Origin: Microglena sp. YARC | Lineage: Eukaryota > Chlorophyta > Chlorophyceae > Chlamydomonadales > Chlamydomonadaceae | Length of the DNA stretch: 64,000 bases | Direction: 5' to 3' | Assembly (NCBI GenBank): GCA_022414725.1 | Contig: CM039462.1 | Coordinates: 44,950,945 to 45,014,944, forward strand | In this document: positions 1,956 through 52,739 of the stretch, in pieces | Position numbering within the stretch: the stretch's first letter is position 1 | Layout: each line of letters begins with the position of its first letter | Position numbers and translations under genes: made by a program | The notes under the pieces: model-generated | What the model saw: only the letters and a program-made list of their open reading frames with translations | What the model was told of the DNA's origin: nothing | Databases searched by the model: none

Positions 1956-2048
1956 TGTGAATGTATGTATGTTAGTCAGTTCTGTCGTCATATTCCAATC
2001 AATTTTTTTACAACCACCGAATACAATACAGTACAGTACAGTACAGTA

Positions 2049-2359: not shown

Positions 2360-2416
2360 TGCGTCTCACCACCTTTCTTTACAAGTTACAAATTGTATTT
2401 TTATTTACACTATTAA

Positions 2417-4417: not shown

Positions 4418-4554
4418 TGAATTAAGTTTCCGGAAGGGTTCGAATAATGAAACCTCGTCAACTGCTGTTCCAGAGTACCCAGTGTCCTCATCCTCCTCCA
4501 CATTGACACCCGACGCCCGACGTAGATTTTCGTTTACTTGGATGCACGTAATGC

Positions 4555-5717: not shown

Positions 5718-5732
5718 TACAATTTAGTAAAG

Positions 5733-5960
5733 TTCTCATTTGTTCTCAATAAAGTGGGACACACCTTTTTATACTCGAAAAATCTGCAGATCGTTGCGTT
5801 TGGGCAACGTTGGGGGGTGAAGCAGGTTGAAGAGGTTCTCGAATATATTCCGAGTCTCCTCTGTGGTAAAAGAAAATTGGTGTAAACAGGAAAACAAAAA
5901 TACCGTACATTACAAAAACCACTAAAAATCAAACATGTTTTCACCCCCCCCCTCAATCCC
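5733..5960 (-). mobile_element. Right-end remnant of Tc1-like family 2
   Basis: The minus strand has ttcgagaacctcttcaacc followed by a conserved cccccaacgttgcccaaa block and cactttattgagaacaa, closely matching the right end of the element at 39255-39948. It lies directly upstream of the kinase start and supplies a gtataaaaag box about 45 bases before it, so it may now serve as promoter. The coding part is only a tail fragment (SRTSSTCFTPQRCPNATIC). Confidence 0.65.
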
Positions 5961-9109: not shown

Positions 9110-9309
9110 ATTACGTGCATCGCAAAGTAAACGAAAATCCTTACGATTCGGTCAGCGTTTCCAGAGAGTCTGTTGATGGCAAATTGTGGAAGGAGGATTG
9201 ATGTTAGATATCTAGTGAGTACTCTGGACAGCAGTTTTGACGAGGTTTCAAATATTATTCGAGTGCAAGGACACGAGACCCCTTCTGAAACTTAATTAAT
9301 ACATTGCGG

Positions 9310-11877
9310 AGATGAAAACGGATGCAGGTCAGAAGAACGAAGCAGACTATGGAGTGCTGAGGAGTAGAAGATGAAGGAGTTTGAGGATTCATGGAGGAAG
9401 TTTTTTTTTCAGATGTCGTTGGTATGGCTCAGGGCTCGTAGGGTTCTTGTATCTCGAGCGGCTCTTAATGCGATTGGCTTGCATACTATTCCTGCTTGCG
9501 ACTGAATCCGAATTACAGATTCGCGAACCAAATGTCGCTGTCCTGTCTTACGCCTCGCTACATGGGATGATCTCCAGAACGCCTACAGTACTTGCTGTGT
9601 GGTAAACAACGCCCGAGAAATAAGCTGGGCGGTGGAGAAGCAGGCTTAGTATTACCGGCCATTGGGCTGACTGTATCCTCTCTGTTTGTTTGTCGTGACC
9701 TTCAGCTAAGGTGGCATCTTGAAGGCCCTGTAGCAAGGATTGGGACCTCTTGTAGAGGGGTGCCAACTCTCTAGCACAGTGTGTAAAGTGCGTGTGTGTT
9801 ACTGATGTATTGGATATAAGCAGTTTTTTCTCGAAAGAGCCGAATCCCTATGGAGGCCGTAGCTACAGCCCCGCGCTAATGCCCTTCAAACGAACAAGAA
9901 GTAATTTTTGTGCTGCTTGAATTTATCCTATCGTCAATCACAAGCACGTGAGACAATCGTGAAGTACCGTATTTTTTACGGTGGCGCTGTTTCAAGTAAG
10001 TAGCACTCATCCGCTATGAGCGCGGGTTCGTATTCTCTCTCGTCTCGAAGTGAGGTGACCCCGCGGACGATGGCTGTCAGGCCGAACGTTGATGTGGCTT
10101 GACACAGTGTGTTTTGCGCTGCCGAAAGGCTAATTCGCACAATTGCGCTCGAGACAAGGTTAACCACCAACGATAATGTCTGTGCCGTTAGCACAGATAA
10201 ACAATGGTGCTCGCTTCATATGAGAAGTCGCTCACTTGCACCTTCGCGCGTATGGGACGAACGCCAGTCCAGAATAGCGTTTCAGCGTCAGACGGTGAGG
10301 AACGCACCCAATAATCGTTCAGGCTGTGGAGACCGGGCGGGCCCGTCCTCTTCATCACCGGGGGTGCCATAGACCGGTCATCTTCAGCTCAGGAGAAGGG
10401 GATATGCAAGAATTCTACTCGGGGTCGAGAGAGAGGGACCGACATCGCGCTATCTGACGGCCGGGAACCAATGCGAATTCTATGAAGCCGATACGCTTAC
10501 GCGAAAACGACACTCAACACGACACGAGATGTGCCTTCGCGGCTACCGATGACGGACCCGCTGGATAACGATGGGGAGAACTCGGAGGTCGCCATCACCG
10601 TTATATCCAGGTTGATCAGTATGTCCCTGGGAGACACTTGTCCGCCAACAGACAGATGCACGTTCCGCTACGGAAGCACATCAGGATCGCACCAAGCGGA
10701 ATTGAGGGTTCCCGTTCCCAGCAAAGCAGCGTCAGGCGGCCTCCACGCGCACGAGAGACAGGTCGCATTAGCCTCCCAGGCTCTAGGTATTTCGGGCGAA
10801 CAGTGAGACGAGGTGTAGAAAATCAGCACGCTTGTCTGTTCACAATCGCACCTGATTTAACACATCGTCCTGTAAAGCATTCGACTGACCACGGTCAGGG
10901 TGCATAGGCTTAGAAGAACACCGCGCTGCAGTAAAAGACCAGGAGACGCCGAATGGACCACGTACTGCGTATGTGTTGCCGCATAGAGCACCACAACTAA
11001 GGTTTTCACGCAGCTGGGCAGGTCGGATGCGGAACGTACATCATCTTCAAAAAAATGGCGGTAGGCGAGATTGCGGATACTTGAACTTGAAACGCACACA
11101 TAGATGTAAGGACGAATCACGGACAGGCAAAGGAGTTAGTATGGCTGTCCGATCACTGGGGCCACGAGCGTATATGCGGTCCATTGTGTTGTTGGGCAAG
11201 ACGATGATGTCGATGATTGGTTCAGATGGATGGCAATGAGCAAGTAGATTGTACTCGTTCAAGAGAAGTGGATGATCATCAATGGGCACGCAAGGTAATG
11301 CAGAGCAGGTTGGTGAGGAAGCCACCACACTGTCTGCAGCCTGGGATGGGGAGGATGTCGTGGGAGAGAGGATAGATATAGACGCTCACTACGACTCGAC
11401 GAGCATTAGTGCTTGCCATTCGGGCATGAATGGTTAACAGAGGCGTCGTGAATGGAGATCATAAACTTGGATCGTCTTCGCTTTTTAGAAGCCATCGTTG
11501 CGTCGCTCGTAGGGAGGGTTGCGTCTCCCGAAGGGAGTGCTATATCATTATCTTAAGGAGAGCCGATAGGAGCTTCCGCATGAGCGCATGGAAGCATGTG
11601 GGGGGTCCCATTCCAGGCTGAAAGAGGCCATGGCTTCCGGTTCGTTGTCTTGGTCCTTGGAATGGAGAAAAGCTAGCTCCAGGCTCGCGTGCAACTTTCT
11701 CCGGAGACGTCTTAGTGTGCATCGAATTGTCGTCCCCCGCATGATCGCCAGTCTTTCTCTGACGAGTGGTGTACGTCTAGAAAGCAGGAGACTAAGGGAG
11801 TCATTGCGACTTTGCAATCCCCGTAGGTATCATCGCCTGGATGGATGGTCGTATCTTGCGTGATCTACTCCTGCCAT
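9310..11877 (-). pseudogene. Noisy copy of the MutS-like ATPase gene
   Basis: The reverse complement from 11877 begins atggcaggagtagatcacgc and follows 2417-4417 throughout, including the Walker A region near 10170-10200, but with frequent insertions and deletions. No long frame survives. The indel-only pattern argues for raw-read error. It should not be counted as a second gene until the contig end is polished. Confidence 0.75.
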
Positions 11878-12155
11878 TTAATAGTGTAAATAAAAAATAC
11901 AATTTGTAACTTGTAAAGAAAGGTGGTGAGACGCAATGAAGCGCGACCGGCTATATATTCTTGGGCGCCATGCTTCACGCTTTGTTGCAATTTCACCAAA
12001 TACCCCAAGACGAATCAATAAGTGTGCTGCCGTCATCGATGATGCAGACATTGATCGAGTGCGAAGTAGCTGTAATGCCAGCGTACGCAATTGCGATCGA
12101 CGCATTGAATATGTACAAGAAAAAGTTAGAGATCTATGTTAACTTCATTGAATTA
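11878..12155 (+). other. Noisy copy of the spacer upstream of MutS
   Basis: Matches 2135-2416 in reverse with indels (for example gcttcacgctttgttgcaatttcacc against the same words at 2310-2335). It contains the counterpart of the small frame at 2111-2359, here broken. No separate gene is seen. Confidence 0.6.
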
Positions 12156-12245
12156 CAGTCGACGGAATACTAAAATGAAACCTCCTCGTGTACGGCACAC
12201 CTTACGGTGTAACCTAATGGTTTTTAGCAACCACGGGGAAGTACT
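12156..12245 (-). mobile_element. Solo right end of family A (second arm)
   Basis: After TA (12154-12155) the sequence cagtcgacggaatactaaaa begins the family-A right-end repeat and runs through acaccttacggtgtaacc. It is the counterpart of 2049-2133. The full transposon at 12312 inserted only about 65 bases away, so the two are neighbours but separate insertions. Confidence 0.75.
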
Positions 12246-12361
12246 GTACTGTTACTGTATTGTATTCGGTGGTTGTAAAAAAATTGATTGGATATGAGAC
12301 AGAACTGACTACAGTCGGCGGAACAGTTGAAAATGAAACATATATCAGATGGAAATATAAT

Positions 12362-13308
12362 GTATCGACATCGCCGTTAGAAAATTGGCGTTAAGAATGG
12401 TCGCTGACTTGGGTGTGTTAAAACTTTGTGTGTTTACGAACATCAGTCGTTCTAGGCTCTGTGGAGGTGGGAAACGCTTTGGTGTAAATGCGAAAACGAC
12501 GTGAATTTGTAAGCAACTTTTTGAGACGAATAAGGATTGTTGTTAAAATCGTTTTTATTGTCAACTCAATGCACAACCGCAAGAGGCGTTGTTGCTTTTT
12601 TCAAAATACTCACAATGTATGATTATCAACTAAAACAGTGTATCGTTTCATAAAAGCTCATTGGTTTTACAAGAAAAAAGGAGCAAACTCCTGGACAGTG
12701 CAAAGGGGACTTAGTTCCACTTGTCAATGAATTTTGTAGTAGGTACAGGAGACAATCAATGCTGGGAAAATTTTAGTATCAGTTGACGAATGTGGGTTTA
12801 GTGAGCGTCTCAAGCCACATTATGGTATTCCCCTGTAGGAAAACCGGTTATCGTTAAAACTACTGGTGGGTGGGTACACCATAGTTTGTTGATGGCAGTT
12901 TTTTCAGATGGTAGGAAGGAGTTCGTTGTGAAGAAAGGATCTGTGAAGAAGACGGACTTCGCTGCATTTATTGACTCATTGAGTTTGTGCAATAATTCAG
13001 TAGTAATAATGGACAACGCCAGTATCCATAAGAACTTGGTCCTCAGAAAGCCCCGTAAATATTTGTTACACTCCTCCTTACAGTCCAGAATTCAATGCTA
13101 TTGAGCTGTGCTTCGCTAAGGTGAAGAAGGACTTTCGTCGATTGAACTATATACCAAACGATACAAAGACGCACGTGTGTCTGATATGATTTCCTTAGCA
13201 TTCAGCAACCTCACTGATAAAATCATTAGGGTTGTTTTGACCACGTATGGAACACGTTATGTGATGTTTGTATAAAGAGTTCTGTGATGTATAAATTATG
13301 TAAGATGG
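12362..13308 (+). pseudogene. IS630/Tc1-type DDE transposase, error-laden copy
   Basis: Corresponds to the intact gene at 31436-32422. Recognisable pieces include the VDECGF first-Asp motif near 12783-12800, the MDNASIH second-Asp motif near 13010, and the PEFNAIELCF motif near 13087-13120. At least ten small insertions or deletions interrupt the frame. Since almost all differences from copy 2 are indels rather than substitutions, the true gene is probably intact or nearly so. Confidence 0.75.
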
Positions 13309-15659
13309 CAACGAAACCTCCGACAGTCGCGAAATTGAAGGAGCTACTAAAATTGGCCGAAGTAGCATACTCATCAAAGGACAAGAAAGGACGATATTGT
13401 CCGTTTATGCGAAGACAATGGTCTCATCGCCAGACCCCCTCCAGAATACAAGACGGTGGAAAAGATATGTGTCGTGAAATGCGCCTGAAGAGGCAATGAG
13501 TCTTGACGATGAAGAATTCGGTAAGTTTAGGGAGCATGTGGATCAGCTCGTCAATGTGGTGAGCCGCATGTTGCGGCGTTCCAGTCTGGTGCTGACTTTC
13601 CATGTCACGAGGCTCATGGAGGGCGACCTGCCGATTCCTAATATGTACGATATGAAGGATACCTACTGGAAGGATTGGCTAAGGATCGGAGTTGACGGTG
13701 TCTTCCCAGATGAAGAGAGTAGAATATCATACGAATCCGTGAAAGACGTAATCGGAAAGGTGCTTGGTAGCGATGACCCTGACTACATCAACTCCTACCC
13801 TATCTATTTCGACCAGGTTTTGAACTATGCCGGTCACACATTGAGCACTGTCGTGTCGAACAACGCATGGGTTCCTTTGGTACCTCGTCTGACACGCCTC
13901 ACTAAGGCTACTTTGAATGCACTGAAAGCTCCGAAGACCATCCGTGTGTACGACGTGATGAGGGTTATCCAACAAGAAATACAGGAGATGGAATCTTGGC
14001 CAGAGTCTGTTCAGGAGTATGTCCGTGAAGTTCGAGTCAGGCTGAAAGTTCCAGATGGAAGTCGACTTTATGATGACTATGGCAAAGACATGGACTTCCC
14101 GACCATGGTCCGGTTTCAATTATTGGATGCAGACACGGTTGGAGGCTATTGGTGCACGTCGTATCCGGTTGATGCCCATCTTTAATGTCCAACGGGCGCG
14201 CATGTCCGCCTTGACATGAAGACCCTCGTGAACCTATTCAGGCACGTGTTCCCCAAAGACCCAAACATCGTCGAGCTTTTCAAAGTGGAAAGATGTAAAG
14301 GATCCCGACCGCTTCATGTTGCCTCTGAAGCCTGCAGTTAAGAAGAAAAAATCATGTGGTCCTGGTGAATGGGAGGCATACAAGTTGGCCCAACAGAAGT
14401 ACGATGCTGACGTTAATGATATCAAGGATACTGACGAGTACAGACATGCAAAGGGTAGGTATGACACGCTCGTGAACGCCCGAAAAACAGTCGCAGGTTC
14501 CTTCTTCAAGAAACCACCTGTCAAGACGGGGTGGGTGTTCGATTGTAGCATCTGTACTGACGGAGTCTCATTGAGCATGCAGTACAGCAAGACAGTACAG
14601 GTTCGTGTATCCGATCTGAAGAAGACAAGTAAGAGGTCTCGTGACGATGAAGGTATGAGCGTCTCAGAACAGTATGACCATAAACTCAAAACGACATTGC
14701 CCGATATGGGTATCGTCGTTCTGGGTGTGGATCCTGGTAGGAGCAACATCGCTACAGTCACGTATCTGGCAGACGACAAAAGCAAGACATGGAAGCTTAC
14801 ACGCGGAGCTTTTTACCACAAGTCTGGTATCAAGAAACAGAAAAAACAGCAAGAAAAACGTTTCTCAGACATGATTCCTAGATGGGAGTCTCTTCGTGAA
14901 AATGGAGCAGCGTTGAGTACATCCAGGACAGATGATATCTCGGCTTACTTGAAAAATTACGCTACGTTTTCCGACGAGTGGTGGAGGATGGCACTCCTTC
15001 GCAGAGAATCCCGAGACAAACTTTCAGAGGTACATTGGCAAGCGCAAGGCTATGGACTCATTTTGGGCAGGGATCAAGCGCAACATGAAGTTGGATCATC
15101 CTGACCTGAGGGTTCGCGTAGCATATGGTTCTGCAATCACGACTATGAAGGCTACCGGACCAGGAGAGGTAGCTGTGCCTACGGGATCTATGTTCGCTTC
15201 CTGCAAGCGCCTCTTCAAAGAGGAGGTTCATGTGACAGATGAGTTCAAGACGACTCTCATGTCTTGGGAAACCGGTGCAAGAAGGAATGTGTTTACAAAA
15301 TTCCAAGTGTCCAAATAACCACGGAAGGGCAGATTCGTCTAGGTTACGAGTTGTTGGGTCACACCCATTGAAGGAGACTCCAAATGTCTCTTATCGCGAC
15401 CAGTTGGCGGTGAGGGTGTACTGCGCACGTAAACAAATCCAAGAAAAACACAGGAGGGGTGGCTTAGCCCCCTCTCTTGTCGACAACAACAACTCGATCA
15501 AGCGGTACCCCTGAGGTACGAGGACTGCGATTCTCTCCAGAAACCAGCACTTACTCGGACCGGGACCGCTCCTCTGCTCTCACAATCGCAAGGCTGCACT
15601 GCATGGAACTGTTGGGTCAAGGGAGACCGCTTCCATTTTGCAGGGATGCGTGTTGTTGA
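13305..15659 (+). pseudogene. Fanzor RNA-guided nuclease (TnpB-like), error-laden copy
   Basis: Starts MATKPPTVAKLKELLKLAEV (SAP domain) and follows the gene at 29110-31491 to its end. Long open pieces are 13496-14185 and 14316-15104. The second contains the RuvC-I motif GVDPGRSN near 14728-14751, in frame with both its upstream and downstream neighbours, unlike copy 2. The RuvC-III motif SDRDRSSAL is near 15552-15580. Frameshifts occur near 13400, 13490, 14190, 14285, 15030 and 15290. Fanzors are eukaryotic and viral relatives of TnpB that cut DNA guided by an RNA from the transposon end; activity of this one is untested. Confidence 0.85.
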
Positions 15660-15669
15660 TGGGCTACAA

Positions 15670-15779
15670 AAAAACATGATGGTGTTCCACTGCCCCGTGG
15701 GTTGCTACACCATAAGGTTACACCATAAGGTGTACCGTACACTCCAGGAGGCGGTTTCATTTTAGTATTCCGTCGAGTG
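15670..15779 (+). ncRNA. Candidate Fanzor guide-RNA scaffold (right end, copy 1)
   Basis: After the Fanzor stop come a short stem CCAC-tgcccc-GTGG, then acaccataaggt, then the near-palindrome GTGTAC-C-GTACAC, then the terminal repeat up to TA. In TnpB/Fanzor systems the guide RNA covers the 3' end of the gene and the transposon right end, with the guide taken from flanking DNA; here that flank begins taacatacattcacaatgg. The hairpins are visible in the sequence; the RNA itself is inferred. Confidence 0.55.
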
Positions 15780-15794
15780 TAACATACATTCACA

Positions 15795-16208
15795 ATGGAT
15801 CAATATTACTCTCACATGCTGGAGACGCTGGTTGACATATTCAATCCACAACTTGCGCACCTAATTTTGTGCAAGAGCATCAAAACCGGGGGTAACGCCA
15901 CATTGTGTATGGATTACGATAGTGTGACGCATCGTGTCGACATTGATTGCAGTGACGAAGGCTAATATGCTTTCGAAGCTATCGATTCCCTCTGTGCGAT
16001 GGCCAACGCTCCTCCTGTCCTGTATGTGAAGGCTTGGATTCTGATTACAGGACGATGCCGTACCAACGGAGAATATTGGCAGTCTGAAAGCATCGTGGAC
16101 GATTCCAATCTTGAAGATTTCCTTGACGGATGGCCTGTTCACAAGACTGTCCTGGATTACTCTGGATTGTTCCAAGATGTAAAGCATCGTAGACGATTCC
16201 GATCTTGA
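15795..16208 (+). pseudogene. Small unknown protein with an in-frame stop
   Basis: ATG GAT CAA TAT TAC opens a 137-codon frame that is continuous except for one TAA after DIDCSDEG, where arm 1 has TAC. It ends DVKHRRRFRS. The Fanzor transposon inserted about 15 bases upstream of the ATG, so the promoter is likely separated from the gene. Arm 1 carries a different lesion (4-base deletion). The product is not recognised. Confidence 0.65.
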
Positions 16209-16296
16209 AGATTTCATTGACGGATGGCCTGTTCACAAGACTGTCATGTACTCTGGATTGTTCCAAGTTTCCAGTTTATTTTTTTTAATCCCACAT

Positions 16297-16462
16297 AATG
16301 GGCGTTCCTGTCTCCCGGCCGATTTTTTTAAATTTCTAATCAGGATTTAGAGCCTCCGGAAAGACTATCTAGCTTGAGACATCAGCACCGATGAATCACA
16401 ATTCCGCTCCATACCATGTTTCGCAACCAGTCAAAATCGGCCGGGAGGCAGGAACGCTCATT
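16297..16462. mobile_element. 166-bp MITE, copy 1, with 4-bp target duplication
   Basis: Begins AATGGGCGTTCCTGTCTCCC and ends GGGAGGCAGGAACGCTCATT, inverted repeats of about 22-25 bp. It is flanked by ACAT on both sides (16293-16296 and 16463-16466). Arm 1 has the empty site aatcccacatgtgactcc near 1454-1470, so insertion and the 4-bp duplication are seen directly. No open reading frame. The mobilising transposase is unknown; a 4-bp duplication does not fit Tc1/mariner (TA). Confidence 0.9.
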
Positions 16463-16479
16463 ACATGTGACTCCGACTG

Positions 16480-16640
16480 TAACGTATATTTCAGTGACTC
16501 GGTACAAGTGTCCTACAGGCTCACTACACAGATGGGTCAATGCTGATCAGGCTGGTAAAAGTAAGCTTTTAAAACGAAAAAGGAAAGAATTGTCCATGCT
16601 TTTACGTTCCACGAATATTGCAGAGAATTTATTGGTCTGT
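16480..16640 (+). pseudogene. Fragment of Tc1-like transposase (family 2), second arm
   Basis: Reads SLHRWVNADQAGKSKLLKRK and ends at a stop after ENLLVC, identical to the fragment at 1281-1440. It is convergent with, and three bases beyond, the anchored protein gene. Confidence 0.7.
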
Positions 16641-16646
16641 TGACTT

Positions 16647-17675
16647 TTAACACAGAGATGAAACTACGTTCTTCATAATGTTCATGACAGTGTCAACGTT
16701 GACCATTCCATCTTTCCCGCATGATCCGTCAATGATGGTGTTGACCATATTTTGAATCTTCTCGATTACTGCAACCTCAACCTGTCCACCCAAAGCCTTA
16801 ACAATTTCTTGTCCGAAAATGGACTTCGAAAGAACACAAGTGAGTGGTACTTCGCCAAGTATCTCCCCTGAATGTTTAATCAATGACATAATCTCATTCA
16901 TGGAGGTTCGGCACCCCTCCTTCGTCATCGCATCAGCAATTCCATTTGCACTGATCAATATTCTTCGGGTGAGTTCGTTATTCGTTGTGTAAGAAATACC
17001 GACGATGTCATTTTGATATTTTACATTTGCATCAGAGACTTCACATATCGATGCAACTACGTTCTTCACAATGGTCATCATCATGTCAGCGTCGACCATG
17101 CCATCTTTTCCGCACGATCCGTCAATGATAATTTTGACCAGATCATGAACCTTATTCAATATTGAAGCTGGAAACTGTCCTTGCAAACTATTAATTTCCT
17201 CTACGGACACAGAGGTCACCAGACCACAAGGAAGTGGTTTTTCACCGAGAATTTCCCCTATATTTGTAATCGCCCCCATTATCTCTTTCATGGAGGATTG
17301 GCACCCATCCTTCTGCACCAAATCGATTATGTCCTGAGCATTGATCATTATTTTATGTGTTACATTACTATTCATCTTGTATGAAATACCCACACGACCA
17401 TGCATGTATGAATTTGTTTTCATATCCAAAACAGTGTCCTGGGATTTTTTACTATCAAGAGCTTTGGTAGCGGACTCTTTATTAATAATGTCATTTTGAA
17501 TGTCTTTTAGACGAGAAAGCTCAATAGCTTTGGCAGCGGACTCCTTACAGTCGTCAAAATTCGTTGTTATTGAATCGAGATCCTTTTTTAAGGAGTGGCG
17601 TGTAAAAACTAAGTAAATTATAGCAGCGATTGCCACCATGTACATCAACACAAAAAAAACGAATATGAATATCAT
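16647..17675 (-). CDS. Membrane-anchored two-domain protein (identical copy)
   Basis: Translates identically to 249-1277: an N-terminal transmembrane anchor and two repeats each closing in IIDGSCGKDGMV. The first in-frame ATG is at 17675; upstream AT-rich sequence matches the other arm except for a roughly 40-base stretch near 17765-17815 that arm 1 lacks. Full identity over 342 residues implies a very recent duplication or two assemblies of one locus. Confidence 0.8.
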   Translation of the reverse strand: MIFIFVFFVLMYMVAIAAIIYLVFTRHSLKKDLDSITTNFDDCKESAAKAIELSRLKDIQNDIINKESATKALDSKKSQDTVLDMKTNSYMHGRVGISYKMNSNVTHKIMINAQDIIDLVQKDGCQSSMKEIMGAITNIGEILGEKPLPCGLVTSVSVEEINSLQGQFPASILNKVHDLVKIIIDGSCGKDGMVDADMMMTIVKNVVASICEVSDANVKYQNDIVGISYTTNNELTRRILISANGIADAMTKEGCRTSMNEIMSLIKHSGEILGEVPLTCVLSKSIFGQEIVKALGGQVEVAVIEKIQNMVNTIIDGSCGKDGMVNVDTVMNIMKNVVSSLC

Positions 17676-17896
17676 ACGGTATATTTGATATTGAGGCACA
17701 TTTTATTTACGAATCCGTGCGTATTTTGACTGATTTTGGAGCATTCCGCTTAGTTATTTTCAAAAAACGAATTCAATAGTGAAAGCCCTGCATGGCCTGA
17801 CTATTGATTGACCAAGTTGGACAGTCACAATATAATTGCACACGCGCGGTGGTCTCCATTCACATTTTTTTGTTCTTATCCAGAAAAGAAAACATC

Positions 17897-19004
17897 ATGC
17901 AACGCGAGGAAACACAACAAGGTAGGGCTTCGTCCCAGGGAGAAGGTCCCATCATACAAAGTGTGATGTTAGTGCACGCCCCCAGTCTGTTGCGCAAAAC
18001 ACGCGCAGCGTCCGTGCAACTCCTGTCCACCGCGCTAGGCCCCCTAAGCACAAACAACACCATCGAGATGATAGACGACCATGACCCGACAGAGCAACTC
18101 AAACGCATTCTACTGACATGCAAGGACCAATACGTGGACATCAACTCGAACAATATCCCCGAAAAGTTCAGGTCATTCACGCCCACTGCAATCAACCTGC
18201 GACAAGTCTCTAATACTCTGAAACACAGAGCCGCACTCACACGCATAGGCGCACAACGACATCACAACACCACAGAACCGGAGGTTCTCGCTCGTCGTGG
18301 AAGATGACACGCTATTCACCCAGAACCTTCGCCCGCTTCTCACGCGCATTACACAGGAGGCGCCTGAGGACGCCGATGTCGTGTTCATCAGCCTACCATC
18401 CCCCCCAACGGAGGACCTCAGCTTCCCAGCACTGGACACGCTCTTCCGCACCCCTCCCGCATGCGACGCTTACCTAGTGACACCAAAGGCCGCGGAGGCG
18501 ATGGCAAGGGCTATGCTTCCGGTCCGCCTCCCCACGCCCATACACTTGCACTACGTCGCCAACACCCTGGGGCTACGCATGTACGTCTCCTCGCACAACG
18601 TATTCGTGGACGGGTCAAAGATTGGGGCCGCGGTGTCCACCATTCAGTCCAACAACCTGCTGATATGGAACCAGCCATTCTGCAAGCTATTCGACGCACG
18701 CAAAAACTCAGAAGGCAAACCGGAAGCTCTAAATACCGCAATCAACGAGTTTGTCTTGTCTTTATCTAGTAGCCCGAACGGTGCCCAGTTCGCGGCGCAC
18801 CCCGACGTCTGGGCGATGCACGCGCGGTGTCTCGGAAGTCTTGGCAAACACGAGGAGGCGCGTGTGCTTTATGAAAAGGCTTACGCCGCATACGTGGAAG
18901 GGGAGGCCATACTAGACATATCGTCAGGCTTCCTCAGAGAGTACATGGCGTTGTACGAGCACCTTCAAAACAGCCACAACGATACTACAGTTGTTCTCAA
19001 ATAA
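17897..19004 (+). pseudogene. GT25-like glycosyltransferase with one frameshift
   Basis: The first frame (17897-18307) contains SNTLKHRAALTRI, the helix preceding the metal site in family GT25. The second frame, effectively from about 18275, reads FSLVVEDDTLF, with the EDD acidic motif of GT25, then DVVFISLP and a CDAYLVTPKAAEAM motif. A single base change in phase near 18260-18280 separates them. GT25 enzymes transfer hexoses in LPS or collagen-type glycosylation, and giant viruses use related genes for capsid or fibre glycans. The C-terminus (VVLK, stop) is read out of a transposon terminal repeat at 18988. The frameshift could be decay or a sequencing error. Confidence 0.65.
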
Positions 19005-25638: not shown

Positions 25639-25822
25639 GGCATTCGATACATCGTCTTGCTTGGTCCCTGTAGCACCATTGCCTTTGATACTCAAGTTAT
25701 TCGCAACAATCTTGTTCCTCATATTGACACTATGGCTTCTGACAATCAACCAAAACATCGAGAACCAATATGTGCGTCACCTAGAAGAGCTTAGAGATTG
25801 CAGCGAAATCAAACATTCCTAA
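25472..25822 (+). CDS. Small two-helix membrane protein, overlapping or C-terminal part of the previous gene
   Basis: ATG at 25472 gives about 116 residues: a first membrane segment MYLMIMLVFVIVAIYVTV, a loop, and a second LILKLFATILFLILTLWLL, ending VRHLEELRDCSEIKHS. It is far more protein-like than the frame it overlaps. It is either a separate gene or the tail of 24910-25638 after a frameshift near 25440-25470. Its 3' end overlaps the convergent Nudix gene by 14 bases. Confidence 0.55.
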   Translation: MPEIVMYLMIMLVFVIVAIYVTVKLDPMASIENVKRLGSVITLIKSGELDKSMFSEAFDTSSCLVPVAPLPLILKLFATILFLILTLWLLTINQNIENQYVRHLEELRDCSEIKHS

Positions 25823-26834
25823 CGAAACCAATGTTCGACATGACCATGCGGGCGATGCGTTGATGCAACATGTCGAACATGCGAAGGCGGGTGGTGTTCT
25901 CTTGTCGTATGCGTCGACGCACGTCATTTTCGTTAAACCATTCCACGCGCCGAATCTCGTGTTCACACCCATACCACCATTTTCTGGTGGCGAAGGAATC
26001 CTCTTTACAAGAAGATTTGATCGAATCGGGTGCACATATTTTTGAAGAAGATGATTCGGACAGGGTTGTTGCATCGGAGTATACGCATCCTCCTCCATGT
26101 ACAGGTATGGACGCAACGTAGTAAATGTGGCGGTAATTGACACGGTTCATACCGAAGAATGTTTCCTCAACCGGCTTGATATTTTGGAGAAAGATAATGT
26201 CAGAGGTGTCCATCGCTGTCTCCTCCATGAACTCACGTTTAGCGCACTCGATGTCACTCTCGTTGATGTTCCGACGTCCCTTCGGAAACCCCCATTCAGG
26301 TTCGATATAAGCGGCGTGTGTGTCAAGAATCGCTGACTCTAGGTTAAAAAACCTTAGTTTAGTTTCTGGAGGTTCGCCTGTGCGCAACCAGTATCCTTTG
26401 CTAAGCTGTCCGTAAAGGTACGATGACTTGTTGAATTCCCTTACAAAGCACGACGCGATCACGTCCTCGGATTCTGTGTGCCAGAAAGTGTTCCAGATAT
26501 GCGTGAACGGACCATCCAACAACATGTCCCGCTCCTCGTCCGTCATGTTAGACACTAATTTGAGGATGTATGTGCGGTTTTGGAGCATGTAGTTGCCTCG
26601 AACGAACTCAACAAAGCAGAGGGAGTACTTTCGTTGCACCATCAGGTATTCGAGTCGTCTGTTGTGAACCCTGAAGCAAATGATTCCAAATGAACTCACG
26701 GGATGCTTACAAAACTTATAGACATGCCCAGTGCGGCCACAGTTAGCGCATTGCACCGAACATCGACCGCCACCAACTCTATTTTTTGTCGCTACACGAC
26801 GGGTTGATTCGATATCGGCGAGTGGGTATTCCAT
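25809..26834 (-). CDS. Nudix hydrolase with zinc knuckle, NCLDV mRNA-decapping type
   Basis: A 341-residue protein. An N-terminal CX2CX4HX4C zinc knuckle (CANCGRTGHVYKFC, about residues 29-42) is followed by a conserved region and a Nudix box GRRNINESDIECAKREFMEE near 184-203, matching GX5EX7REUXEE. This arrangement is that of mimivirus L375-like and poxvirus D9/D10-like decapping enzymes, which remove the m7G cap from mRNA in the cytoplasm or virus factory and promote shut-off and turnover of transcripts. All glutamates of the box are present, so it should be active. It lies in a cluster of RNA-processing and transcription genes. Confidence 0.9.
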   Translation of the reverse strand: MEYPLADIESTRRVATKNRVGGGRCSVQCANCGRTGHVYKFCKHPVSSFGIICFRVHNRRLEYLMVQRKYSLCFVEFVRGNYMLQNRTYILKLVSNMTDEERDMLLDGPFTHIWNTFWHTESEDVIASCFVREFNKSSYLYGQLSKGYWLRTGEPPETKLRFFNLESAILDTHAAYIEPEWGFPKGRRNINESDIECAKREFMEETAMDTSDIIFLQNIKPVEETFFGMNRVNYRHIYYVASIPVHGGGCVYSDATTLSESSSSKICAPDSIKSSCKEDSFATRKWWYGCEHEIRRVEWFNENDVRRRIRQENTTRLRMFDMLHQRIARMVMSNIGFVRNV

Positions 26835-27386: not shown

Positions 27387-27739
27387 CAGTCAACGGAATA
27401 CTAAAATGAAACCGCTTCGTGTACGGCACACCTTAAGGTGTAGCAACTCACGGGGCAGTGGAACACCAATACGATTTTGAATCAACAAATTGCAGGATGT
27501 TAACGAGAGTATCGTTCTTTTGTCGGTACTTTCGAGAGTGTCCATCGAAGGACCAGCCGCACTTAAGCGATCGACTCTTTCCCGGTACCGTGGCCCAAAA
27601 GAACACGGGGTCTTTGTTGATGTGCAATGCGTCATGAAAGGAGGTTTCTTTGCTTGACGGGCCATTTTGTAGGACCATCCACTCTGTCGACGCCTTATAC
27701 CGTTTATTGGGATGTTTCATTTTACTGTTCCGCCGACTG
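27387..27739. mobile_element. Non-autonomous family-A element (353 bp) carrying a small frame
   Basis: Left end CAGTCAACGGAATACTAAAA, right end tttactgttccgccgactg, flanked by TA at 27385-27386 and 27740-27741. The Fanzor-side end keeps gtgtacggcacacc and ccttaaggtgt and a CCAC...GTGA-type stem. The interior is unlike transposase or Fanzor; on the minus strand a 90-residue frame starts at the ATG inside the terminal repeat (27720, MKHPNKRYKASTEW) and contains WSFDGHSRKYRQKN. A related WSF-GHSRKYR fragment is at about 52520-52570. Confidence 0.88.
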
Positions 27740-28899: not shown

Positions 28900-28988
28900 C
28901 TATCTAATCTAATCTATCTATCTAATACTATAGTCTTCGGTGTAAGACAAACCATTTATACTATTTTTCATGTTGTGTGGGGGGGTTA
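28880..28988 (-). promoter_or_regulatory. Upstream region of the TFIIB-like gene with TATA-like box and short repeats
   Basis: Between the gene and the Fanzor transposon are several tatctaatc repeats (28901-28928) and, on the minus strand, agtataaatggtttgtctta. The truncated paralogue has agtataaaaaggttgtctta at the same distance, so this box is conserved between the two copies. Confidence 0.5.
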
Positions 28989-29109
28989 CACTCGACGGAA
29001 TACTAAAATGAAACCGCTTTCTTGAGTGTACGGTACACCTTGCGGTGTAACCTAATGTTGTCGCGACCACCGGAGGGGGACCGAGTGGTGTCTACAACAA
29101 TACGAGTTT
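28989..29109 (-). ncRNA. Candidate Fanzor guide-RNA scaffold (right end, copy 2)
   Basis: Read on the minus strand: a stem CCACTCGG-tcccc-tCCGGTGG, then tcgcgacaac, then ggttacaccgcaaggtgt, then GTGTAC-C-GTACAC, then the terminal repeat ending at TA. Copy 1 has a different primary sequence at the first stem (CCAC-tgcccc-GTGG) but a stem in the same place, and the same second part. The guide, if any, would be the flank taacccccccacacaac. RNA not shown, only inferred. Confidence 0.55.
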
Positions 29110-31491
29110 TTATTCATCAACAACAACAGAGCTGCTGTGGGCAAATGGAAGAGGTCGTCCTAGACCCATCAATTCCATGCAGTGCAGCCTTGCGATTGTG
29201 AGAGCAGAAGAGCGATCACGGTCCGAGTAAATGCATGTTTCTGGAGAGAATCGCAGTCCTCGTACCTCTGGGTACCGCTCGATCGATTTTTGAGAATCGA
29301 CAAGGGAAGTGGCGAAGCCACCCCTCCTGTGCTTCTCTTGTGCGCCTTTACGTTTATTGTACAACCTTACCCCTAAGTGGTCGCAATCAGCGACCTTTGG
29401 CATCGTTTTCGATTTCGTGTGACCAAAACGTTCACCACCCAACCTAAGCTTCACGTCTGCTGAACAAACACTTGGGATCTTGTAAACACGTTCTTTTTCT
29501 TTACCCGTCTCCCACGACATAAGAGTCGTTTTGAACTCATCTGTCACAGAAACGTCCTCTTTGAAAATTCTTTTACACGATGCGAACATGGCCCCAGTGG
29601 GAACTGCAACTTCTCCCGGTCCAGTAGGCTTCAGTTTCGTGATGGCAGATCCGTAGGCCACGCAAACCTTCATATCAGGAAGTTCTTTCATCATGCACCG
29701 CTTGATACCCGCCCAGAAAGAGTCTTTGACCTTTCGTTTTCCGATGTAACGCTGCAAGTTGTCACGGGATTCTCGGCGTCGCAAAGCCAATCTCCACCAC
29801 TCGTCAGAAAACTTAGCGTAATTTGACAAGTACGCGGAGATCTTATCCGTCCTCGATGTACTCAAAGCTGCTCCATTTTCACGCAGAGACTCCCACATAG
29901 GAATCATGTCAGCAAAACGCAGTTCCTTCTGCCTTGTCTGCTTCTTGATACCCGACTTGTGGTAAAATGCACCACGTGTCAGCTTCCATGTCTTATTTTT
30001 TATTGTCTGCCAAATACGTTACCGTAGCGATGTTGCTCCGTCCTGGGTCCACACCCAGGACGACGATACCCATATCGGGCAATATCGTTTTTAAGTGAGC
30101 CGTCGTATTTTTTCTGCGATCTTGATACCTTCTTCTTTACGAGGCTTCTTACAGGTCTTCTTCAAATCTGAGACAAGGACCTGTACTGTCTTGCTGTACT
30201 GCATGCTCAAAGAGACTCCGTCAGTACAGATGCTGCAGTCGAAAACCCACCCATTCTTGACAGGTGGTTTTCTGAAGAAGGAACCTGCGACTGTTTTTCG
30301 GGCGTTCACAAGCGTGTCATACAAACCCTTTGCATGTCTGTACTCGTCAGTAGCCTTGATATCCTTAACATCATCATCGTACTGCTTCAGGACCGACTTG
30401 TATGCCTCCCATTCACCAGGACCACATGATTTTTTCTTCTTCTGTGCAGGCCTCTGGGGCAACATAAAGCTGTCGGGATTCTTTACATGTTCCCACTTGG
30501 AAAGCTCAACGATGTTCTGGTCATTGGGGAACATGTGCCTGAACAGGTTCACGAGGGTCTTCAGGTCAAGGCGAACATGCACCCGTTGGACATTGAAGAT
30601 GGGCATCAATCGGATACGACGTGCATCCATATCCTCCAACCGTGTCTGTATCCAATAATTAAACCGGACCATGGTCGGAAAGTCCATGTCTTTGCCATAG
30701 TTATCATAAACTCGACTTCCATCTGGAACACTCAGCATCTCCCTAACTTCATTGACGTACTCTTGAACAGACTCTGGCCATCCCTCCATGTTTTGGACTT
30801 CTTGCTGAATAGCCTGCATCACGTCATATCCCCGAATGATCTTCGATGTGTCCAGCGTCTTCGGGGCATTTAATTTATTTAAAGTGGTGGAAGTGAGTCT
30901 GGCCAGACGTGGTATCAAAGGAACCCATGCGTTGTTTGACACGACAGTGCTCAATGTGTGACCTGCATAGTTCAATACCTGATCGAAATAGATCGGATAA
31001 GACTTGATGTAGTCAGCGTCGTCATTACCAATTACATCGCCGATGGAGTCCTTCACAGCTTCGTACGATATCTTGCTTTCCTCATCAGGGAAGATTCCGT
31101 CTACCCCGATACGTAGCCAATCCTTCCAGTAGGTATCTTTCATGTTGTACAGGTCTGGAATATCCAGACCTTTCTCTAATAGACTCGTGATGTGGAAAGT
31201 CAGCACCAGACTGGACCGCCGTAACATGCGGCTCACCACATTGACGAGCTGGTCCACATGCTCCCTAAACTTACCGAATTCTTCATCGTCAAGACTCATT
31301 GCCTTCTTCAGGGCGCATTTCACTACACACATCTTTTCCACCGTCTTGTATTCTGGAGGGGGTCTGGCGATGAGACCATTGTCTTCGCATAAACGGACAA
31401 GATCGTCCTTGTTGGACTTCGACGAGTATGGTACTTCAGCCAATTTCAGTAGCTCCTTCAATTTCGCGACTGTCGGAGGTTTCGTCGCCAT
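29110..31491 (-). pseudogene. Fanzor RNA-guided nuclease, broken only at the RuvC-I motif
   Basis: Fanzors are transposon-encoded TnpB relatives in eukaryotes and giant viruses. Residues about 5-40 (TVAKLKELLKLAEVPYSSKS...LVRLCEDNG) form a SAP DNA-binding domain. The first frame runs 466 residues (31491-30091). The RuvC-III motif YSDRDRSSALTIAR lies near 29195-29235 in the second long frame (29907-29110). Between them the RuvC-I motif LGVDPGRSN (about 30032-30062) is out of frame: two A runs upstream (near 30112 and 30088) and one downstream (near 30001) are each one base longer than in copy 1. The three add to one codon, so both ends share a frame; full length would be about 792 residues. 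The usual CXXC zinc-finger cysteines after the DEF-T motif are not evident. Confidence 0.88.
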
Positions 31492-32422
31492 CTTTCATAA
31501 TCAATACGTCACAGACCGCTTTATACACATAAGTGTTCCAAACGTGTTCAAAACAACCCATAATAATTTTATCAGTGAGGTTGCCGAATGCTAAGGAAAT
31601 CATATCAGACACGTGCGTCTTTGTTTCATTCGGTATGTAGTTCAAACGACGAAAGTCTCTCTTCACCTTAGCGAAGCATAGCTCAATAGCATTGAATTCT
31701 GGACTGTAAGGAGGTGTGTAACAAATATTGACGGGGTGACTGAGGACCAATTTCTTATGGATACTGGCATTGTCCATTATTGCTACTGAATTATTGCACA
31801 AACTCAATGATTCAATAAATGCAACGAAGTCCATCTTCTTCACAGATCCTTTCTTCACAACGAATTCTTTCCTACCATCTGAAAAAACTGCCATCAACAA
31901 ACTGTGGTGTACCCACCCACCAGTAGTTTTAACGATAACAGGTTTTCCTACAGGGGAATACCCATAATGTGGCTTGAGACGCTCACTAAACCCACATTCG
32001 TCAACTGATACTAAAATTTTCCCAGCATTGATTGTCTCCTTGTACCTACTACAAAATTCATTGACAAGTGGAACTAAGTCCCCTTTGCACTGTCCACGGA
32101 GTTTGCTCCTTTTTCTTGTAAAACCAATGAGTTTTATGAAACGATACACTGTTTTAGTTGATAATCGTACATTGTGAGTACTTTTGAAAAAAGCAACAAC
32201 GCCTCTTGCGGTTGTGCATTGAGTTGACAATAAAAACGATTTTAACAAATCCTTATTCGTCTCAAAAAGGTTGCTTACAAATTCACGTCGTTTTCGATTT
32301 ACACCAAAGCGTTTCCACCTCCACAGAGTAGAACGACTGATGTTCGTAAACACAGAAGTTTTTAACACACCCAAGTCAGCGACCATTCTTAACGCCAATT
32401 TTCTAACGGCGATGTCGTACAT
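31436..32422 (-). CDS. IS630/Tc1-type DDE transposase
   Basis: An intact 328-residue transposase. The N-terminal half has paired helix-turn-helix regions (TSVFTNISRSTLWRWKRFGV about 23-42; RLSTKTVYRFIKLIGFTRKR about 86-105). The DDE core follows: VSVDECGF near 139, AIMDNASIH near 219 and PEFNAIELCFAKVK near 250. By my count 29 residues separate the second Asp from the Glu, fewer than the 34 usual in Tc1 and IS630. It starts inside the terminal-repeat region and ends in the Fanzor N-terminal coding sequence. It should mobilise the family-A elements, including the short ones. Confidence 0.9.
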   Translation of the reverse strand: MYDIAVRKLALRMVADLGVLKTSVFTNISRSTLWRWKRFGVNRKRREFVSNLFETNKDLLKSFLLSTQCTTARGVVAFFKSTHNVRLSTKTVYRFIKLIGFTRKRSKLRGQCKGDLVPLVNEFCSRYKETINAGKILVSVDECGFSERLKPHYGYSPVGKPVIVKTTGGWVHHSLLMAVFSDGRKEFVVKKGSVKKMDFVAFIESLSLCNNSVAIMDNASIHKKLVLSHPVNICYTPPYSPEFNAIELCFAKVKRDFRRLNYIPNETKTHVSDMISLAFGNLTDKIIMGCFEHVWNTYVYKAVCDVLIMKDGDETSDSREIEGATEIG

Positions 32423-32467
32423 TTATTTCCATCTGATATATGTTTCATTTTACTGTTCCGCCGACTG

Positions 32468-32588
32468 TAGGGTTGGTGGGGCAAAGCGGATTGTCGTAAT
32501 GCGGTTAAGGGGGGCCCCTCCCAATGAATGAACATCCCATCGACCATGCGTGAGACGGCCGCTGATTCGGGGACGCGACAAAACATTA
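32468..32588. other. Short spacer beside the transposon
   Basis: Contains a GC-rich stretch (aaggggggcccctcccaatgaatg) whose last part, cccaatgaatg-acatcccatcgac, recurs at 34632-34658. No gene seen. Confidence 0.5.
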
Positions 32589-43781: not shown

Positions 43782-44194
43782 TCCTAGATCAGTGTCATGG
43801 CACCGATCCTCCCGGTCATGGCACCGCTCCTCCCTGTCATGGTACCGATCCTCCCGGTCATGGCACCGCTCCTCCCATTCATGGCACCGCTCCTCCCTGT
43901 CATGGTACCGATCCTCCCGGTAATGGCACCGCTCCTCCTGGTCATGGTACCGCTCCTCCCAGTCATGGCACCGATCCTGGTCATGGCACCGATCCTGGTC
44001 ATGGTACCGCTCCTCCCGGTCATGGCACCGATCCTGGTCATGGAACCGCTCCTCCCGGTCATGGCACCGCTCCTCCCGGTCATGGTACCGCTCCTCCAGG
44101 TCATGGCACCGCTCCTGGTCATGGAACCGATCTTTTAGGTGCTCGTTCCCGCGAACTGATGATGAGTAATGCGAACGTTCACTCCTCCTACTAG
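43718..44194 (+). CDS. HGTAPPG repeat protein, uncertain
   Basis: A frame of 158 residues made mainly of HGTAPPG / HGTDPPG / HGTDPG repeats, ending LGARSRELMMSNANVHSSY. The other phase on this strand and one minus phase are also open across the array, so openness alone proves nothing. The start region overlaps the convergent gene at 43413-43781. It may be a surface repeat protein or simply a minisatellite. Confidence 0.3.
   Translation: MIGKPHISRFGSTLIRTSMETFLDQCHGTDPPGHGTAPPCHGTDPPGHGTAPPIHGTAPPCHGTDPPGNGTAPPGHGTAPPSHGTDPGHGTDPGHGTAPPGHGTDPGHGTAPPGHGTAPPGHGTAPPGHGTAPGHGTDLLGARSRELMMSNANVHSSY
43795..44140. repeat. 18-21 bp tandem array
   Basis: About eighteen units of catggcaccgctcctcccgg type, with 18-bp variants lacking ctc. 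Unit lengths are multiples of three, so all frames stay open. No spacers. Confidence 0.9.
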
Positions 44195-49139: not shown

Positions 49140-50190
49140 TAGGAGTCTTAGAGCATGTCATTGTCCATGGTGAGCAACATTATTGTCCCTGGTAGAGCAC
49201 GTAAGTCAATGTGAGGCACGTCATTGTCCATGGGAAGCATTTCATTGTCCAGGGTGGAAGCACGTCATTGCCATGGTGAGTGAAGCGCACGTTATTGTCC
49301 ATGTGTATATGCATATCTCATTGTCCATGGTGTCAGCACTCATTTCCAGTGAGTGGATGCACTTCATTGTCAGGGTGGAGCACTCATTCCAGAGTGGAGT
49401 GAAGGCACTCATTGTCCCAGGTAGAAGCACGTCATTAGGCCACGTCATTTGTTCCAGGGGGTGGTTGGCACGTATTGTCCATGGTAGAGGCAATGTCATT
49501 GTCCATGGTGTGGGAGGTGAAAGGCACGTTATTGTAGAAGAACGAACAAACGACACGCAATCAACCCCGGGGTTAATGCATGCCATCAATTGTCCAGGGT
49601 GGATGCACGTCATGTCCATGGGTAGAGGCATGTCATTGTCCAGGGGTGAGGCACGTTATTGTCCCTGGGTAGAGGCACGGTCATGTCCAGGGGCTGTAGG
49701 CCCACGTCATTGTCCAGGGTCATTGTTAGGCACGTTATATTCCCTGGGTAGAGGCACGTCATTGTCCAGGGGTGAAGGCACGTTATTGTCAATGGGTAGA
49801 TGCATGCCATCATTGTCCAGGGGTGGATGCACGTCATTGTCCATGGGTAGAGGCATGTCATTGTCCAGGGGTGGAGGCACGTTATTGTCCCTGGGTAGAG
49901 GCACGTCATTGTCCAGGGTGGCCAGGCACGTCCATTGTCCAGGGTGGAGGGCACGTCATTGTCCCTGGGTAGAGCACGTCATTGTCCCTGGGTAGAGGCA
50001 CGTCATTGTCCAGGGGTGGAGGCACGTCATTGTCCATGGGTGGAGGTGAAGGCACGTCATTGTCCATGGGTGGAGGAATGCACGTTATTGTCCATGGTAG
50101 ATGCATATCGTCATTGTCCATGGGTGGAGGCACGTCATTGTCCATGGGTAGATGCATGCCATCATTGTTCCATGGGTGGAGGCATGCCAT
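49140..50190. repeat. 24-bp tandem array (about 40 units)
   Basis: Units of the form ggcacgtcattgtccatggg plus tgga, with cagg/catg/cctg variants. Many units have lost or gained one base, again the mark of raw reads, mostly in the left half. Both strands are open in places (CHCPGVEARHCPWVEA; NDVPPPMDNDVP) because of the repeat. No unique spacers, so not a CRISPR array. Confidence 0.9.
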
Positions 50191-51074: not shown

Positions 51075-52442
51075 TTAATGCAACTATATACATTGTTCTT
51101 CTTCTCAAACAATTTCTGGACCGCATCAAGGGTCTTGGGTTGAGCAACGCCTTTGGTAGACGCTTCTGAAGGTACATACACCATAAATGTTTTTGTCTTA
51201 CGGGAGAGCAAGTTTTCGGAATCTTGTTCCGAAATCGATTTTATCATATCATGATATTTCGCCTTGATGATGACCTCCAAGAAAGTTTCCGCAATTATAG
51301 AGTTGAACCGGTAGGTTCCCTTCAAGACAGTTGTCTTATCAGGGCTCATGGCAGATTCTATACCAAGGTTGGTTCTGCAGTCCCTTGCGAAACCATTATT
51401 TTTGTTATCGTGGCCTCCAAGACTCTTGTAGAGACCGGTTTCTTAGAGGTGTTGGGTTGTAAGGTGAACCAGATGCCCTCCATACCTTTGCTTTTCAGAG
51501 TTATGTACACGCTGAGGTAAGCCAAAACCGACTTGAGCCAAAGAGCAAACTTAGATGCATCAGGAGCAGCACGGTAGAGGGGGGCTCAGTAGCAGCAAAG
51601 CTGCAGGAACATGAGGAGCATCAGCATCAGGAGCAGCGCGGGTAGAGGGCTCAGTAGCAGCAAAAGCTGCATGAACATGAGGAGCATCAGCATCAGGAGC
51701 AGCCGGGTAGATGGGGGCTCAGTAGCAGCAAAAGCTGCAGAACATGAGGAGCATCATAATCAGGAGCAGCACGGGTAGAGGGGGGCTCAGGAGCAGCAAA
51801 AGCTGCAGAACATGAGGAGCATCAGCATTCAACAACCAATCAATTTCATCAGCATTCAACAACCAATCCATTTCATCATCAAAAGATGCAGGAACATGAG
51901 CAGTAGAAGCAGCAGCAGGAACATGAGCAGGAGCATCAGCATCAGAGCAGCGCGGTAGAGGGGGGCTCAGTAGCAGCAAAAGCTGCAGGAACATGAGGAG
52001 CATCAGCATCAGGAGCAGCGCGGGTAGATGGGGCTCAGTAGCAGCAAAAGCTGCAGGAACATGAGGAGCATCATAATCAGGAGCAGCACGGGTAGAGGGG
52101 GCTCAGTTAGCAGCAAAAGCTGCAGGAACATGAGGAGCATCAGCATTCAACAACCAATCAATTTCATCAGCATTCAACAACCAATCCATTTCATCATCAA
52201 AAGATGCAGGAACATTGAGCAGTAGAAGCAGCAGCAGGAACATGAGCAGGAGCATCAGAGTTACCAGGGAGGACCTGGTTATCAGACACTTGCACCTCAT
52301 CATGGTCAAAAAGAAAGCTTTCCGCTTCTGAGGGTCCAAACCGGTCTGGGTTTCCATTACTGAAAAGCTTCCCAAACTTCCCAAACTGAGATGTAGGCTT
52401 CGAGGGGGGTCCCAAACTGGAATTGGTGTTAAAATAAGACAT
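51075..52442 (-). pseudogene. Repeat-rich protein with conserved C-terminal domain, interrupted
   Basis: Starts MSYFNTNSSLGPPSKPTSQF; then acidic text, then repeats around DDEMDWLLNADEIDWLLNAD and alanine-rich units. At about 51550 the frame resumes as ASKFALWLKSVLAYLSVYIT, SKKPVSTRVLEATITKIMVS, and after a shift MSPDKTTVLKGTYRFNSIIA to NVYSCIN. The C-terminal part reads like a domain shared among mimivirus-type viruses (WLK..AYL..YI..KS..., TGTYR). Several indels lie in the repeat zone and one near 51350. Confidence 0.5.
51545..52235. repeat. About 65-70 bp repeats inside the preceding gene
   Basis: Units of agcagcaaaagctgcaggaa followed by catgaggagcatcagcatca and ggagcagcgcgggtag. Two copies also include a longer block with cattcaacaaccaatcaatt. 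Small indels differ between units. Confidence 0.85.
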
Positions 52443-52489
52443 CGTTGTGGTGAACTTTAGTATCTTGTTGTGATTAACTCGATTTTTCA

Positions 52490-52600
52490 TTCAATTTTTT
52501 ACAAAACCCCAATGTGGTGTTTCTTGTTGCCCGGTACTTTCGAGAGTGTCCATTGAAGGACCAGCTAGGAAAGAGAGAGAGAGAGACGAGTGCCGCAGAC
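52490..52600 (-). pseudogene. WSF-GHSRKYR fragment
   Basis: The minus strand gives LVLQWTLSKVPG in one frame and WSFNGHSRKYRATRN in another, matching the interior of the 353-bp family-A element (WSFDGHSRKYRQKN). No transposon ends adjoin it here. Confidence 0.5.
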
Positions 52601-52739
52601 CCAGAGGATCAGAGGACCGCGTACGATACAGGTCACAAAATGATGATGTTCCGCTTTTGAAATAAGTGATAGAAATGTGGTATAAACCAATGGGTTTTGT
52701 TACATACCACCACATATAACCGAATTATACACGAGAGCA

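Follow-up and report, generated by a model that had tools for sequence, protein, structure and literature searches.

What might an RNA-guided nuclease do for the transposon that carries it? The question is raised by a 64,000-nucleotide stretch of the Microglena sp. YARC genome (the window; C1:44950945-45014944 of genome assembly G000, 568 Mb in 2,390 contigs), in which a Tc1/IS630-type transposon encodes a DDE transposase together with a Fanzor1 protein. Fanzor proteins are relatives of CRISPR nucleases. Here we show that the two genes, which run in the same direction, recur genome-wide as one unit with both ends, and that the element inserts in one orientation at CTA. From these observations and from a predicted guide RNA at the right end, we develop an account in which the nuclease would be aimed at the element's own empty target site.

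A transposon family with two genes

The window copy of the transposon (copy 1, Table 1) was located exactly where the initial annotation had placed a TA-flanked unit with inverted repeats. TA adjoins both of its ends, at 28987-28988 and 32468-32469, and each end carries a terminal inverted repeat (TIR): the left end, on the transposase side, reads CAGTCGGCGGAACAGTAAAATG, and the right end, on the Fanzor side and in inward reading, CACTCGACGGAATACTAAAATG. TIRs with a TA target-site duplication are as in Tc1/IS630/mariner transposons. Copy 1 aligns from end to end with other copies at 98.0-99.5% identity.

Genome searches returned at least 127 matches to the transposase, at least 91 to the N-terminal part of the Fanzor and at least 144 to its C-terminal part (the N-part listing holds 91 scored of 975 candidates, and the totals are lower bounds), a recurrence far from chance. 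Among the 24 loci fetched around matches (L021-L044), L030, L041, L042 and L043 have both genes intact and both ends, so that the ends recur around the gene pair elsewhere, a check that the initial annotation had itself proposed; L039 also has both genes intact, in an alignment that ends 33 bases short of the right end. Copies with an intact Fanzor but missing transposase sequence include L022, L035 and L037. The second copy reported in the window lies where it had been placed, but with both genes broken. Compared with L043, also of subfamily B, it shows 96-100% identity in all 100-column windows except three (lowest 88%), with 26 small indels and 48 substitutions; this decay is indel-rich, and an assembly error is possible.

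The transposase had been annotated as intact and of the Tc1/IS630 type, and it matches PF13358 (DDE_3; E=1.4e-23, 83.8 bits, cut-off 28.6) and the IS630 profile NF033545 (5.5e-30, 104.8 bits, cut-off 100). Residues D141, D217 and E247 are invariant in 17 of 17 aligned sequences, and 29 residues separate D217 from E247; the spacing from the second Asp to the Glu is 34 in Tc1. A profile of the transposase gave no match in the PDB at 0.001.

The nuclease was harder to name. Pfam, NCBIfam and single-sequence PDB searches gave no Fanzor match for its frame, and its identity emerged only from a 46-row profile (L039, L041 and 44 of 52 homologues, the 8 excluded being mostly partial matches or longer proteins) and from the fold, which matches solved Fanzor1 proteins over 502-536 residues. 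The TDG motif of the WED domain is present in all 46 rows, DPG at RuvC-I in 44, and an alternative Glu, six residues before the zinc-finger position, in 45; the relevant passages of PMC10711439 give these three as Fanzor1 traits. The C4 zinc finger between RuvC-II and RuvC-III, part of the Fanzor/TnpB motif as set out in 2013 (passages of PMC3627910), is lacking: its CxxC occurs in just one row (P0052), 43 rows have Trp at that place, and one row has no residues there. According to PMC10711439, in the part concerned with this domain, "many" Fanzors carry it. We therefore file the protein as a Fanzor1 variant, from a clade without zinc finger by profile, fold and motifs. The catalytic residues D481, E651 and D758 are kept in 45, 45 and 44 of the 46 rows, and on these the Fanzor is predicted to be a nuclease despite the missing zinc finger.

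The initial annotation had described copy 1 as encoding a SAP-domain Fanzor with RuvC-I and RuvC-III motifs. The Fanzor1 identity stands, but in this copy the 466-aa (amino-acid) and 265-aa parts lie in different frames, with the RuvC-I segment within the broken stretch, and the SAP-like N-terminus matches HeH/LEM (PF12949) at E=0.0059, below cut-off (7 of the 46 rows match, best 1.8e-6). In A-run lengths across the RuvC-I stretch copy 1 deviates from the 20 other subfamily A copies, one pattern being common to 16 of the 21; the break may be real slippage or a consensus error, which look alike here. An intact 792-aa homologue is found in L039 and other loci, and 34 of the 91 listed N-part matches belong to a single uninterrupted frame of no fewer than 786 aa (22 of subfamily A, 12 of B; hand count).

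The two subfamilies differ more in the Fanzor than in the transposase. Over 12 A-B pairs for each gene, synonymous divergence (dS) is 0.089-0.161 for the transposase and 0.551-0.576 for the Fanzor, and the ratio of nonsynonymous to synonymous divergence (dN/dS) is 0.175-0.382 and 0.209-0.227, respectively (three of the 8 intact A Fanzors were used). Identity between L039 and L043/L041 likewise falls in steps along the element: 91-100% to element position ~690, 88-93% to ~1,077, 94-100% to ~1,277 and 62-92% beyond (leaving aside the last window, where the end of L039 is missing), with a patch of L041 at 1778-1973 that is 98-99% identical to L039. Divergence and identity steps together argue that the Fanzor and its guide scaffold have a deeper history than the transposase now shared by A and B, and that modules were most likely exchanged between elements.

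Oriented insertion and a predicted guide

Directly before the left end, CTA is found in 1,385 of 1,415 exact ends genome-wide, with A, G or T before TA (DTA) in the other 30, whereas of the 810 exact right ends, read inward from the flank, 173 have a C at the corresponding place and 637 an A, G or T. The share of C is thus 97.9% on the left and 21.4% on the right; the first 100 listed of the 637 non-C right ends comprise 64 T, 19 A and 17 G (hand count). Where both ends were fully read, C precedes the left TA in 19 of 20 elements, and in one of these 19, L027, TG stands in place of that TA (in the 19 further rows of this pairing the same elements recur on the reverse strand or ends pair by chance). 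When the flanks of these 20 elements were joined, L031, L035, L036 and copy 2 (empty site 1849-2099) each proved to have an empty counterpart, in which C stands before a single TA; a fifth counterpart, of a short element in a minisatellite, reads TC at that place, and the remaining 15 had no counterpart among the sequence compared. The empty sites hold both the C and a single TA, so these bases were already part of the target and the element inserts in one orientation.

What chooses the C can be judged from four elements that have a left end on either side and lack a right end (L045, L046, L057 and L065); they carry it on 8 of 8 flanks. For three of them both ends had been drawn from the CTA list, and for L057 one end. 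Excluded from this set were L066 and L067, which have right-end-type sequence ~56 bases beyond one left end and a shared structure, and L047, which is short and adjoins another end; two convergent pairs of ~2.2 kb also lie outside it. Within C1:1-33.15 Mb, where all exact left ends amount to 100 CTA and 2 DTA, three two-left-end elements were confirmed, in all of which C stands on both sides; the two DTA ends lie outside such elements: one has a right-end-type partner (L061), and the other begins a transposase copy. Because elements without the Fanzor side show the C too, it is most simply put down to the transposase acting at the left end; the Fanzor would then need to recognise CTA as its target-adjacent motif (TAM). 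The CTA bias as proof of selection by the Fanzor was dropped after this control.

The right end, in turn, is predicted to form a structured RNA. For the last 113 nucleotides (nt), counted with the TA and read on the Fanzor strand, the fold has three stems in subfamily A (window copy), in subfamily B (L043), in the short element L048 and in L030, an A copy whose right end is a variant, with folding z-scores over 117-nt stretches of -3.41, -2.49, -2.33 and -1.68, respectively. In stem 3 UACACUC pairs with GAGUGUA (four pairs only in L030), so that this stem includes the TIR and the target-site duplication; both are built into the scaffold of Fanzor1 right-element RNAs (reRNAs) in the pertinent passages of PMC10711439. 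An alignment comprised 22 of 54 right-end-like rows, with stem 1 misaligned between the subfamilies. The pair count left out six of these rows: L023 (identical to the window row), L050, two without the middle stretch and two without the 5' strand of stem 1 (the last two judged by eye). In the 16 rows counted (14 distinct), 98.2% of 341 cells pair, against 23.9-54.3% with the partners slid, and one pair of stem 1 is U-A in 6 rows and G-C in 8. A scan of the window with Rfam gave no match. By prediction and pair counts the right end thus has the three stems, TIR and target-site duplication that mark Fanzor1 elements. Structural evidence for the modelled right-end RNA is good, not overwhelming, and the transposon likely makes a guide RNA, which would aim the nuclease at the element's own insertion site.

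Gene-less elements of ~125-470 bp with a transposase-type left end occur at L047-L056 and also in the window. An ACACC-GGTGT right-end hairpin is kept in 5 of these 10 loci (L047, L048, L050, L053 and L056) and is partial or lost in four; L055 has no right end that we could see. Those with the hairpin could act as extra guide sources. Other derivatives are more rearranged: L036 has extra left ends, tandem and inverted, beside one insertion, in a foldback-like cluster, and L065, L066 and L067 are ~2-kb elements with left-end-type sequence near both ends and captured sequence inside, which in L065 includes a leucine-rich-repeat-like open reading frame (ORF; label by eye).

Table 1. Positions, in the window, of the transposon copies and of the parts of copy 1
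Feature	Position	Strand	Remarks
Transposon copy 1, subfamily A	28989..32467	-	3,479 bp excluding TA duplications; TIRs at both ends
Tc1/IS630-type DDE transposase, 328 aa	31436..32422	-	intact; PF13358 (DDE_3) and NF033545
Fanzor1 N-terminal frame, 466 aa	30091..31491	-	TDG motif; frame breaks before RuvC-I in copy 1
Fanzor1 C-terminal frame, 265 aa	29110..29907	-	has the RuvC-III Asp and the alternative RuvC-II Glu, lacks the zinc finger
Predicted omegaRNA scaffold, three stems	28987..29099	-	last stem is TIR plus TA duplication
Predicted guide of copy 1 (flank after TA)	28967..28986	-	placed by analogy with passages of PMC10432273 and PMC10711439; ~20 nt assumed
CTA target flank, transposase side	32468..32470	-	predicted TAM; target-site duplication TA at 32468-32469
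Transposon copy 2, subfamily B	12312..15779	+	broken in both genes; 84.6% identity to copy 1
Short non-autonomous relative	27387..27739	-	left end transposase-type, right end omegaRNA-type, gene-less

What the nuclease may do

Taken together, these features lead to a model of self-targeting. The first step is seen directly: the element inserts at CTA with a clean TA duplication and with its transposase end beside the C. The transposase bound at the left end would set this C, and a transcript of the right end is predicted to fold into the three stems, the last with TIR and TA, and to run on into the flank as guide. A filled site reads CTA-element-TA-flank and an empty one CTA-flank, so the guide that follows the right-end TA matches the flank beside CTA only where the element is absent. 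With CTA as TAM, the nuclease would cut the empty allele or sister chromatid, where the guide sequence follows CTA, and would spare the filled site, where the element lies between CTA and the flank. Repair templated by the filled copy would put the element back or spread it, and short elements that keep the right end may supply further guides to a Fanzor made elsewhere. Oriented insertion would therefore place each copy between a ready TAM and its own guide. That the Fanzor cuts the element's own empty target site is the account towards which we lean, if only somewhat. A broader statement, in which transposase and zinc-finger-free Fanzor1 form one targeting machine, oriented jumps programming the nuclease, gene-less relatives adding guides and the nuclease-guide module being swapped onto the same transposase backbone, we offer as tentative and regard with some doubt.

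Several observations weigh against this model. The two-left-end elements, with C but without Fanzor side, make the CTA bias no proof of Fanzor selection, and the zinc finger is missing. Within subfamilies the changes are few and dN/dS ranges from 0.13 to 1.09, so that present-day constraint is not evident. The predicted guides of L036 and L035, the two guides followed and chosen for their known empty sites, match the genome perfectly, over CTA+20 nt, at 74 and 43 places; an always-active nuclease should have attacked such sites, and their persistence speaks against constant activity. In the RNA, one of the stem 3 pairs fails to form in 4 of 14 rows and a second one in 2, and RNAalifold alone (13 trimmed rows) gave 12 pairs in two stems, with no pair changed on both sides.

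The same observations shape the alternatives. The Fanzor could be a passenger, the transposase alone picking CTA and spreading the family, and the nuclease acting elsewhere, for example against rival elements. The C on both sides of the four two-left-end elements, the spread of gene-less derivatives and the persisting perfect targets would fit this, but purifying selection on the Fanzor since the A/B split, the open frames among the listed matches and the retention of a structured right end beside the Fanzor in A and B alike do not, and we hold it to be unlikely. That insertion occurs at any TA, with only the CTA-adjacent events retained through the Fanzor, would explain a left-right difference in C that is unexpected from a symmetric transposase dimer; given C on both sides of the two-left-end elements (four elements and eight flanks, a small number) and the absence of DTA ends from such elements in C1:1-33.15 Mb, this is improbable. 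A lineage that lost DNA cutting along with its zinc finger, and became an RNA-guided binder such as a repressor of transposase or host genes, is in keeping with the near absence of CxxC from the 46 rows; the retained D-E-D residues and the extent of the Fanzor1 fold match make it very improbable.

The initial annotation had favoured a different link between the two genes. In copy 1 the next ORF starts at 31491, inside the transposase gene, and the 56-base same-direction overlap then reported is exact; in subfamily A, also in L030 and L039, the Fanzor start codon falls within the transposase gene, 56 bases from the end of its stop codon. This was taken to couple the products, by reinitiation or frameshifting in such a scheme, so that cutting and transposition would be one event. 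In subfamily B, judged from three fetched copies with an intact transposase (93-95% identical to that of copy 1), the overlap is absent as such: a 7-base length difference brings the transposase stop to 302 aa, the homologous Fanzor ATG lies beyond it, and an in-frame upstream ATG would give another overlap, of 28 bases. Many related transposases also end at about 300 aa. The 56-base overlap is probably recent, and by this comparison the frames overlap without a conserved role. As the junction differs in the sister subfamily, the inference fails; the overlap gives no ground for a coupling mechanism, and we dropped it as a coupling device, which now seems scarcely credible.

If the self-targeting model is true, each jump would direct the element's nuclease to the corresponding empty site. 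One genome brings together transposase, Fanzor, predicted guide RNA, predicted TAM, empty sites and 810 exact right ends, which makes the model directly testable, and with it the unsolved role of Fanzors in transposition. The bias of 1,385 to 30 is a TAM prediction ahead of any assay, and a Fanzor1 clade without zinc finger is a test of the need for that domain.

Surroundings and known relatives

Further repeats and genes lie elsewhere in the window. Positions 1-17973 form a large inverted-repeat element, whose arms take in 164-1461 and 16463-17760 (100% identical) and which encloses a MutS domain V gene (2417-4417); copy 2 is inserted in one arm, and its empty site is found in the other. An ORF at 25809-26834 has a NUDIX domain (E=4e-8), and this ORF and the MutS gene look virus-like. 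Long tandem repeats, in steps of mostly 21, 24 and 27 bases, occupy 43789-44153, 49613-50186 and 51557-53748. The initial annotation had suggested a search of giant viruses for the two-gene unit: in the viral contigs scanned we found no Fanzor relative (58 pattern stretches, 0 confirmed) and one weak transposase relative (30% over 68 residues), and a scan of a phage collection gave no match. A giant-virus origin of the unit was rejected on this result.

Mariner-type elements that carry Fanzor1 have been known from the literature since 2013 (PMC3627910). The passages there on PUl-1 of Pythium ultimum and PGv-1 of a Phaeocystis virus describe the same Mariner-type transposase with Fanzor1, TIRs and TA duplication, and same-end relatives missing one gene, as here; they do not treat target orientation or guide RNA. 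Compared with what they report, the present elements form a many-copy family of two subfamilies in a 568-Mb genome, with an oriented CTA target and no C4 zinc finger. SpuFz1 of Spizellomyces punctatus (PDB 8gkh, 9ceu-9cez) shares the Fanzor1 fold and the D-E-D site; in the passages of PMC10432273 on its element SPu-1, the TA duplication is putative, the TAM CATA ends in TA, as does CTA here, and, unlike here, no transposase was found within the inverted repeats. SpuFz1 has 633 aa against 792-801 aa here, and its PDB molecule name includes OrfB zinc ribbon. The best sequence-profile match, over TDG and DPG, is GtFz1 of Guillardia theta (PDB 9cer-9cet), in which, unlike here, a catalytic Asn replaces the third Asp (passages of PMC11423790); its TAM is TTAA. 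The reRNA of the SfAV Fanzor1 element has a three-stem scaffold with TIR and target-site duplication, as predicted here; as told in that part of PMC10711439, its small RNA was sequenced and the element is without transposase, whereas here the structure is predicted and a transposase is present.

The IS630 family shares the transposase profile NF033545 and the TA duplication, and differs from the present family, which has a eukaryote-sized host genome, a Fanzor cargo and a C preference on one side only. The IS630 target is CTAG. With TnpB the family would share the logic of self-targeting, the orientation bias here supplying both requirements at nearly every insertion. In titles and abstract openings of the papers listed by searches on Fanzor and wider terms, with no search on those words alone, we found neither an oriented TA target nor a zinc-finger-free Fanzor1 clade. 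New here, as far as folding models indicate, is an omegaRNA-like right end with three predicted stems in both subfamilies.
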